Shown: positions 45,158 through 47,504 of the stretch, in pieces | Position numbering within the stretch: the stretch's first letter is position 1 | How the letters are laid out: every line of letters begins with the position of its first letter | NCBI GenBank assembly: GCA_902555435.1 | Contig: CACDRL010000007.1 | Coordinates: forward strand, 1 to 64,000 | Length of the DNA: 64,000 bases | From: an uncultured Pelagibacteraceae bacterium | GTDB taxonomy: Bacteria > Pseudomonadota > Alphaproteobacteria > Pelagibacterales > Pelagibacteraceae | Reading direction: 5' to 3' | Made by a program: the position numbers and the translations under genes | The notes under the pieces: generated by a model | The model's input: only the letters and a program-made list of their open reading frames with translations | Databases searched by the model: none | What the model was told of the DNA's origin: nothing

Positions 45158-45655
45158 TTATGAGTTTATTTTTTTTAGTTGTTCTTTAGTTTCTTCTAAA
45201 TTTTTTTGAAACACAGCATCAAGTTTTGATTTATCAACTGATGTAGTTATGATTTTTTTTACTGAGTCCACCGCTATTTTAATTGAAGCATCTTTTATTT
45301 CTTTCAATGCAGCCTCTTTCATTTGGCTAATCTTATTTTCAGCTAAACTCTTTTTAATCTCTGAGGATTTATGAAATTTGTCATTTAAATCTATAATTAA
45401 TTTATCCGATTCTTTTTTTGCATTTTCCAAAATTTCATTACTTACTGTAGTAGCAGTATCTAATTTTTTTTGTGCATTATCGAGTAAAGTTTTTGCCTCT
45501 GTTCTCAATTTTTCACTTTCATCTATCTCATTTTTGATATCCGAAATCATACCATCAAGCATTTGAGAAACTTTTTGTGGAATTTTAAAATAAATTAAGA
45601 CACCGATAAAGATTACAAATGAAATTGCTACCCAGAAAGTTGCATCAATTGCCAT
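45158..45655 (-). CDS. atpF: ATP synthase F0 subunit b
   Basis: The 165-residue stator subunit has an N-terminal membrane helix (AIDATFWVAISFVIFIGVLIYF) followed by a long charged coiled coil that reaches F1. The ATG at 45655 is chosen over an upstream in-frame start because GGAG sits 9 nt before it and the family begins with a short segment before the helix. It overlaps the end of the b' gene by 11 bp. It is the last gene of the F0 operon; the F1 genes are not in this window. Confidence 0.92.
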   Translation of the reverse strand: MAIDATFWVAISFVIFIGVLIYFKIPQKVSQMLDGMISDIKNEIDESEKLRTEAKTLLDNAQKKLDTATTVSNEILENAKKESDKLIIDLNDKFHKSSEIKKSLAENKISQMKEAALKEIKDASIKIAVDSVKKIITTSVDKSKLDAVFQKNLEETKEQLKKINS

Positions 45656-46235
45656 AATATTTATCTCCATTTCTTTTAGATAGATCGTCAACAATTGCTG
45701 ATATACTGCTATTATTTACTTCAGCACCAATAAGTTTCTGTAGTAACTCAGAAGATGTATCTATAGCAATTTTATTTATTTTATCAGGCGCATTATCTCT
45801 TAAAGCTTGAATTTCTTCCTCTGCTTTAGAAATTTCGTCATCTATTTGTTTATCAAGCACTTCTCTTTTTGCATTTATATCTTTAATCGCTTTCTATCTT
45901 GCTTGATTAAACATATTATTTGCTTCAGTTTTGCTTTTTAAAATTATTTGATCGTACTCTTTAAGTTTGGTCTCACTATCTTCTCTTTGTTTTTCAGCTG
46001 CCTCAATATTTTCTAGAATTTGAGATTTTCTAGACTCTAAGTTGTTACTAATTTTTGGAAGAATTAATTTAGATAAAACTAAATACATTATCCCAAAAGT
46101 AAGTACCAACCAGAAAATCTGAGAAACCCAAAACTCAGGATTTAATTGAGGCATACCTCCACTTTCAGCTGCAAAAGCTTCTTTAATTAAAAAGAAGCTT
46201 AAAAATATTATATGAAGATATATTTTTTTGACCAT
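45645..46235 (-). pseudogene. atpG: ATP synthase F0 subunit b' interrupted by an in-frame amber codon
   Basis: Second stator b subunit (b', also called AtpG or AtpF2) of alphaproteobacteria. The ATG at 46235 gives a hydrophobic leader ending in EAFAAESGGMPQLNPEFWV, a membrane helix (FWLVLTFGIMYLVLSKLILP) and a coiled coil. At plus-strand 45894-45896 the codon is TAG, between ANNMFNQAR and KAIKDINAKRE. The same frame then continues with a normal b' C-terminal coiled coil to a TGA at 45645. Without the TAG the protein would be about 196 residues. TAG is an ordinary stop elsewhere here (for example at 6799-6801 and 62030-62032). It could be a real nonsense mutation, a sequencing or assembly error, or a site of read-through; a GTG at 45860 is the only obvious restart codon for the second half. 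Confidence 0.85.
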
Positions 46236-46239
46236 TAAC

Positions 46240-46467
46240 TTAAAACGCAAATAAAATAATCAATGCAACAACTAATCCAAATAATCCTGTTGCTTCAGCA
46301 AGTGCGAAACCTAAAAGTAAGTTTGGAAATTGTTTCTGAGCTGCTGATGGGTTTCTCATGGCACCTGATAAATAATTTCCGAAAATTATTCCAATACCAA
46401 CACCGGCACCAGCTAAAGCTATTGCTGCTAAACCTGCTCCGATCATTTTTGCTGCTTCTAATTCCAT
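46240..46467 (-). CDS. atpE: ATP synthase F0 subunit c
   Basis: The 75-residue proteolipid forms the rotor ring. Two membrane helices flank a polar loop (RNPSAAQKQ). The ion-binding carboxylate is the Glu in GFALAEATGLFGL of helix 2. The Gln in helix 1 that marks sodium-binding c-rings is absent (GAGVGIGIIFGNYL), so proton coupling is expected. A strong Shine-Dalgarno (GAGGAG) precedes the ATG. It lies between atpB and b'. Confidence 0.97.
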   Translation of the reverse strand: MELEAAKMIGAGLAAIALAGAGVGIGIIFGNYLSGAMRNPSAAQKQFPNLLLGFALAEATGLFGLVVALIILFAF

Positions 46468-46484: not shown

Positions 46485-47219
46485 TTAATGGTGTAAATTT
46501 AATGCATCATTTAAATAGATGCAGGTTAAAATTGCAAAAACATATGCTTGAAGAAAAGCAACTAATATCTCCAAACCAGTTAATGCAACTGAAAAACTAA
46601 GTGGAAGCCATCCACCGACTATTCCAAGACTAATTACAAAGCCTCCGAAAACTTTCATCATTGTATGACCAGCCATCATATTAGCAAATAATCTAACTGA
46701 TAGACTTATTGGTCTACTTAGATAAGAAATAATCTCTATCACTACTATTAAAGGAAGTAGCACAGCTGGTACTCCACTTGGTACAAATAATTTTAAATAT
46801 CCAAAACCATGTTTAATAAATCCTATTACTGTTACGCCGATAAAGATAAATGCAGCAAGAACAAATGTAACAATAATATGACTAGTTACAGTGAACGTGT
46901 ACGGTATCATTCCGAACATGTTGCAAAACAAAACAAACATGAACAATGAAAAAATAAAAGCAAAATATGGTTTTGCTTTAGAACCAGCTGTATCACTTAT
47001 CATTTTGGAAACAAAGGTGTAGCTAAGTTCCGCTAATAATTGAATTTTATTTGGTAAGATTGAATTTTTCTTAGATCCTAAATTAAAAATTAATAAAATA
47101 GAAACTGTACTTATAATCATAAACAAACTTGCGTTTGTAAAAGATATATCAAATGCTCCAACTTTTATTTCAGGTCCAATTCTATAAACATCGAATTGTG
47201 ACATTGGATTTGCTGCCAT
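46485..47219 (-). CDS. atpB: ATP synthase F0 subunit a
   Basis: The 244-residue stator channel subunit has about six membrane helices. The essential Arg is in SLSVRLFANMMAGH, with the following Gln/Glu-type residues in the last helices (ALTGLEILVAFLQAYVFAIL). It carries proton half-channels facing the c-ring. It sits between atpI (9 bp) and atpE (17 bp). Confidence 0.96.
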   Translation of the reverse strand: MAANPMSQFDVYRIGPEIKVGAFDISFTNASLFMIISTVSILLIFNLGSKKNSILPNKIQLLAELSYTFVSKMISDTAGSKAKPYFAFIFSLFMFVLFCNMFGMIPYTFTVTSHIIVTFVLAAFIFIGVTVIGFIKHGFGYLKLFVPSGVPAVLLPLIVVIEIISYLSRPISLSVRLFANMMAGHTMMKVFGGFVISLGIVGGWLPLSFSVALTGLEILVAFLQAYVFAILTCIYLNDALNLHH

Positions 47220-47228
47220 AGTAGTAAC

Positions 47229-47504
47229 TTATTTTTGCATCTTCTTTGCTGATTTAATCACATTCATTATTCCAGCGATCACGCCAACAAAAAAAAATAT
47301 TAATATAAACCAGGGTTTAGTACCAAAGGTCTTGTCAAAAATAAACCCAATAATTGTCCCCACAGCAACTGCAGACACAAGTTCTGTGCTTAATTTGAAT
47401 GCTGTTCCAATAGGTGAGGGATTATCCTTCTTGTTGTAAAGATTTTTCTTAGAAATCTTGCTTTTTGCAATCTCTAAGCGAGTTTTAAAAGGGTCTTTTG
47501 CCAT
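47229..47504 (-). CDS. atpI: ATP synthase accessory protein AtpI
   Basis: A 91-residue protein with two membrane helices (about residues 32-52 and 60-80) joined by DKTFGTKPW. It matches the short alphaproteobacterial AtpI family, believed to help c-ring assembly or Mg2+ handling. It precedes atpB in the F0 operon and follows smc by 9 bp. Confidence 0.87.
   Translation of the reverse strand: MAKDPFKTRLEIAKSKISKKNLYNKKDNPSPIGTAFKLSTELVSAVAVGTIIGFIFDKTFGTKPWFILIFFFVGVIAGIMNVIKSAKKMQK

Follow-up and report, generated by a model that had tools for sequence, protein, structure and literature searches.

The window, by which we mean the whole stretch of 64,000 nucleotides analysed here, carries the F0 operon of an ATP synthase on its minus strand, in the order I-a-c-b'-b (Table 1). 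The feature that will occupy us is the b' gene, which translates as one continuous frame made of 113 codons, a TAG, 82 further codons and a TGA. The genes for c and b were assigned by Pfam; the names given to a and I are presumptive. The delta subunit (OSCP family), which is the partner of the stalk, is also present and has no internal stop.

Table 1. Features of the F0 operon and of its interrupted b' gene, in window coordinates.
Feature	Position	Strand	Basis or remark
ATP synthase subunit b, intact, 165 aa	45158..45655	-	Pfam
ATP synthase F0 subunit b' gene	45645..46235	-	196 codons + TGA, broken by a single TAG
b' portion downstream of the TAG	45645..45893	-	82 codons + TGA
GTG, codon 126, suggested restart	45858..45860	-	GTG in 25/80 relatives
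In-frame TAG, codon 114 of 196, private to the window	45894..45896	-	Translation and relatives
b' portion upstream of the TAG	45897..46235	-	113 codons; leader, membrane helix, first coiled-coil part (labels by eye)
ATP synthase subunit c, intact	46240..46467	-	Pfam
ATP synthase subunit a, intact	46485..47219	-	Name presumed from position and sequence
AtpI-like ORF, intact	47229..47504	-	Name presumed from position

As a member of the subunit b' family, the gene matches PF00430 and lies between c and b, and its frame is interrupted at codon 114. In the whole-genome profile search, the PF00430 match runs across the stop ('1 TAG' inside) and reaches 64.4 bits, against a curated cut-off of 28. 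The portion upstream of the TAG scores 47.7 bits by itself; a Pfam search with only the 82-residue downstream portion gives no family at E 0.001. The NCBIfam scores fall below the curated cut-offs both for the read-through b' and for the adjacent intact b, which points to divergence of the clade and not of the b' gene. A preliminary description of this DNA had reported one in-frame TAG at this place, with no frameshift, and its coordinates and its account of the gene are right: the frame is continuous, the profile match crosses the stop, and no private insertion or deletion is seen.

The b' frame was aligned to 142 loci, of which 113 matched, four of them being the window itself, so that 109 non-self loci can be compared (some genomes enter twice, the named contigs and the genomes overlapping). 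The 29 loci with no b' match are the tRNA and release-factor loci (L032-L058, L061 and L062). Codon 114 was found to be a sense codon in all 109 non-self loci (88 GAA, 8 GAG, 6 CAA, 5 AAA, 1 GCA and 1 GGA), and it encodes glutamate, through GAA or GAG, in 96 of them; no stop occurs in the aligned b' portion of any of the 109. Among the best 80 of 531 confirmed loci, glutamate stands at residue 114 in 79 and alanine in one, and all 80 genes are open to their normal stop. When 399 genomes of the genus were scanned, 291 gave a b' match and 108 (many of them incomplete) did not, and among the matches listed no stop in b' was found beyond the window's own genome. The three closest relatives, whose DNA over 6.3 kb around b' is 97.55% (L063, AG-439-D13), 97.78% (L064, AG-914-B03) and 97.17% (L070) identical to that of the window, all carry GAG at codon 114, so a single G-to-T change suffices to give TAG. 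It had been proposed in the preliminary description that sense codons in close SAR11 relatives would make the stop an error or a private mutation; the comparison gives precisely this outcome, and it speaks against a biological novelty.

The eight nearest relatives align over these same 6.3 kb, where the window has no private insertion or deletion, and they allow one to see which base differences are its own. Within b' there are five: two change an amino acid, one creates the TAG and two are silent. Both amino-acid changes lie upstream of the TAG and both silent ones downstream, where no private amino-acid change is seen in comparison with these eight relatives. By its sequence, then, the downstream portion shows no apparent decay, although at so small a divergence an error and a real mutation of very young age would look alike in this respect. 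In the relatives, this portion is under purifying selection (for instance, dN 0.048 and dS 0.256 between L065 and L070), so its loss is not normally tolerated. Over the whole 6.3 kb the window has 28 private substitutions, of which 16 are silent, 6 change an amino acid, 1 is the stop and 5 are intergenic (hand sums). The TAG is the sole G>T among them; G>T and C>A together account for 3 of the 28, against 15 of 263 in the eight relatives (hand count), and three such changes are too few for a signature. Protein-altering changes make up 7 of the 23 private coding changes in the window, the stop included, and 64 of 226 in the relatives (hand count), a similar share, and thus no general error load is seen.

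The quality of the assembly was examined by matching ORF queries from the genomes of relatives to the window, the matches being counted above 60% identity. From the closest relative (G285), 48 queries matched, over 36,380 window bases, and only two had an internal stop, both of them pieces of b'. From G106, 74 queries matched (56,034 bases) and ten were flagged for stops, b' (L174_31) being one of them. The nine others were rejected as interruptions: in L174_40 the stop lies before the ATG of an intact 271-aa ORF, presumably COX2; L175_66, L175_67 and L176_100 are antisense to a 553-aa ORF that we take to be GroEL; L174_41 is out of frame within a 544-aa ORF, presumably cox1; L175_65 has a Met directly after its stops; and L173_22, L175_72 and L176_75 are antisense to ORFs of 356, 421 and 215 aa. 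From G295, 62 queries matched (49,022 bases) and five were flagged, namely b', L182_71, which is antisense to a 220-aa ORF, and L181_47, L182_74 and L183_94, which fall at places already flagged with G106. On contig C1 (160 kb), 147 of 166 G106 queries matched, over 138,690 bases, and three of the 147 had stops; these all lie within the first 36 residues, and an intact ORF follows in each case. In the relatives themselves, eight genes around the site were followed in 80 loci (473,370 aligned bases), and none of the 624 gene copies gave a match that was stopped, split or cut short. In all, the comparisons of window genes with G106, G285 and G295, and those over the 138,690 bases of C1, turned up b' as the sole interrupted gene. 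We reject the idea of an error-ridden assembly, as every other flagged query is explained by an intact ORF that it runs antisense to, overlaps out of frame or precedes. In a clean assembly the TAG stands as one isolated change; this counts equally for a real mutation and for an error, and for that reason we do not hold the error reading more firmly.

If the TAG were real and tolerated, an alphaproteobacterial ATP synthase could run on one full-length stalk subunit, with a bearing on the origin of mitochondrial ATP8. As matters stand the case is mainly a caution: one stop codon met in a normally essential gene, in the draft genome of an uncultured cell, is likelier to be an error than biology. 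A reassignment of TAG is rejected, since RF1 of the window's own genome is intact and TAG is in use as a stop. Indeed, RF1 is full length (357 aa) and above the prfA cut-off, RF2 is present and above the prfB cut-off, and TAG terminates 4 of the 56 mechanically called window ORFs of at least 150 aa, in agreement with the earlier remark that TAG is a real stop elsewhere in the window and that wholesale recoding is unlikely. The 27 tRNA matches of this genome consist of 25 ARAGORN calls with a normal anticodon, a His tRNA (L055, anticodon GUG read by eye from the alignment) and a truncated copy (L058). The latter (C12:6685-6742) repeats the 5' portion of an intact tRNA gene with anticodon CAU that lies about 3.1 kb away (L045, C12:3517-3590), but its 3' end is replaced, which resembles the trace left by an insertion or a duplication. 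A stretch of N beside the 16S rRNA gene, on contig C6 of the same genome (G000), may hide the Ala and Ile tRNAs.

Programmed or suppressor-mediated read-through of the TAG, which would yield a full-length b', could draw on the intact frame on both sides of the stop. A suppressor tRNA could also have been overlooked, given that N stretch and a tRNA set that lacks Ala, Ile, Lys, Pro and Ser-UGA. E. coli reporters moreover have read-through hotspots, with up to 79% at one TGA site, according to PMC11126739; the same study, however, puts the mean TAG signal, over the temperatures and media used, at 0.01-0.80% of the wild-type level. Against read-through there are also the intact RF1, the lack of any CUA anticodon among the 26 intact tRNAs of this incomplete set, a site that is not conserved (none of the 109 non-self loci has the stop that a programmed event would be expected to conserve) and an RNA structure after the TAG that does not go beyond chance (z -0.32). 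We therefore regard read-through or suppression, one of the options raised at the outset, as very improbable. No better are the prospects of a split b', in which the second half would be restarted at the GTG and would join the first half non-covalently. This GTG lies 36 bases past the first base of the TAG and is the sole in-frame ATG, GTG or TTG downstream of it, but in the 80 relatives with an open b' codon 126 is mostly another Val codon (36 GTT, 25 GTG, 12 GTA, 4 ATA, and 1 each of GTC, ATG and ATT), with nothing that marks a start, and the downstream portion, as we have seen, finds no Pfam family by itself; in the relatives the suggested restart is an ordinary Val codon. A promoter ahead of the second half was considered and rejected, promoter-like matches of the region being at the level of shuffled sequence (13 against 12.8). 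Terminator-like sites number 3 in the region against 0.9 after shuffling, and none is within b'. The suggestion that a second b had replaced b' did not hold up either: in this assembly, which is 94% complete, PF00430 finds only the b and the b' of the window, with no second b' and no extra b.

A stable and functional stub, in which the 113-residue b' would act like mitochondrial ATP8 and b alone would carry the stalk, deserves a separate look, because the TAG falls just past an ATP8-like part of the protein. Residues 29-110 of b' match positions 1-81 of the 84 of the YMF19 model (E 2e-12), and the portion upstream of the TAG scores above the cut-offs of PF02326 and PF05933 and just below that of PF00895. 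In SAR11 b' more widely (this portion, L063 and L071), the matches to YMF19 range from 2e-12 to 1.4e-11 and those to Fun_ATP-synt_8 are about 2e-6; the motif MPQLNPEFW is found in b' of all 80 named loci. According to the review PMC6131620, A6L/ATP8 has been proposed to derive from a truncated bacterial b subunit, and the matches of SAR11 b' to ATP8 models fit this proposal. The full-length b' of two relatives matches the same ATP8-type models about equally well, however, and the match thus says nothing special about the truncation; the downstream portion is undecayed, and the TAG is in no relative. Mitochondria, furthermore, have additional stalk subunits that SAR11 is not known to possess. 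A functional stub is accordingly very improbable to us, and that a SAR11 lineage should be living with a tolerated ATP8-like stub of 113 residues and a single full-length b, re-enacting in nature the origin proposed for ATP8, would be more improbable still.

What the sequence shows is a TAG that is private and a single base removed from the GAG of the closest relatives, and the search for recoding machinery found none. Most likely the TAG reflects either an error at one base or a mutation private to this genome, and not a new decoding trick. Of these, we consider it probable that the TAG is an isolated one-base error, arisen in amplification, assembly or consensus, in what would be a normal SAR11 b' gene. 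The true codon 114 would then most likely be a glutamate codon, and the cell would make an ordinary b' of 196 residues, which together with b would form the peripheral stalk of the ATP synthase. The preliminary description had listed a sequence error among its options; what stands is its wider wording, error or private mutation, given the sense codon in 109 of 109 loci, while the error itself, and with it the wrong base, is what we infer. We favour an error over a real mutation because of error and mutation rates that are assumed from general knowledge. With an error rate of 1e-5 per base and a nonsense share among random substitutions of 5.7% (686 of 12069, in four window genes), a 1.3-Mb assembly would be expected to contain a little under one nonsense error, and this expectation would, at these assumed rates, far exceed the expected share of cells in which an essential gene has newly acquired a null mutation. 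For single-cell amplification, the main text of PMC5519541, in the part available, offers no usable error rate.

A real private nonsense mutation of very recent date, in the cell or clone that was sequenced, would leave a 113-residue stub; this seems unlikely to us, though it is the next most likely reading. It would go well with the clean assembly elsewhere and with private substitutions of the window that look natural. The stub would keep the membrane part: by hand count from the alignment, residue 114 of b' falls near residue 81 of the 156-residue subunit b of 6oqr chain X, presumably that of E. coli, a place that we take to lie in the dimer domain, ahead of the delta-binding part. Judging from this alignment, the stub could sit in the membrane and would not be expected to reach delta. 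Work in E. coli with b subunits of unequal length has reportedly suggested that some function can be sustained by a single full-length copy, so that under a real mutation the ATP synthase might be lost, impaired or partly working with one full-length b. Stator subunits of F0 are normally needed for ATP synthesis, however, and such cells would be very rare; the lost portion is under purifying selection in the relatives and undecayed in the window, and the TAG is seen in none of the 109 loci. Our search of the literature found nothing relevant on nonsense mutations in the SAR11 ATP synthase, and the part of PMC6377231 at hand contains nothing on a truncated b.

It remains to set the gene beside the systems that it recalls. 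It resembles mitochondrial ATP8 and YMF19 through the matches upstream of the TAG, and differs from them in that the full-length b' of relatives matches too, a cut form that is made and used being only hypothetical. With alphaproteobacterial subunit b' (PF00430; NCBIfam NF009988 and NF006612) it shares the c-b'-b place in the F0 operon, the leader, the membrane helix, the coiled coil and, if read through, the length of 196 residues, and it is set apart by the in-frame TAG at codon 114. Compared with private nonsense calls in draft genomes, which are errors or single-lineage pseudogenes, it is unusual in that the TAG sits in a normally essential gene of an otherwise clean assembly, and alike in that the TAG occurs in no other locus examined, the frame is intact on both sides, and near-identical relatives are one base away.
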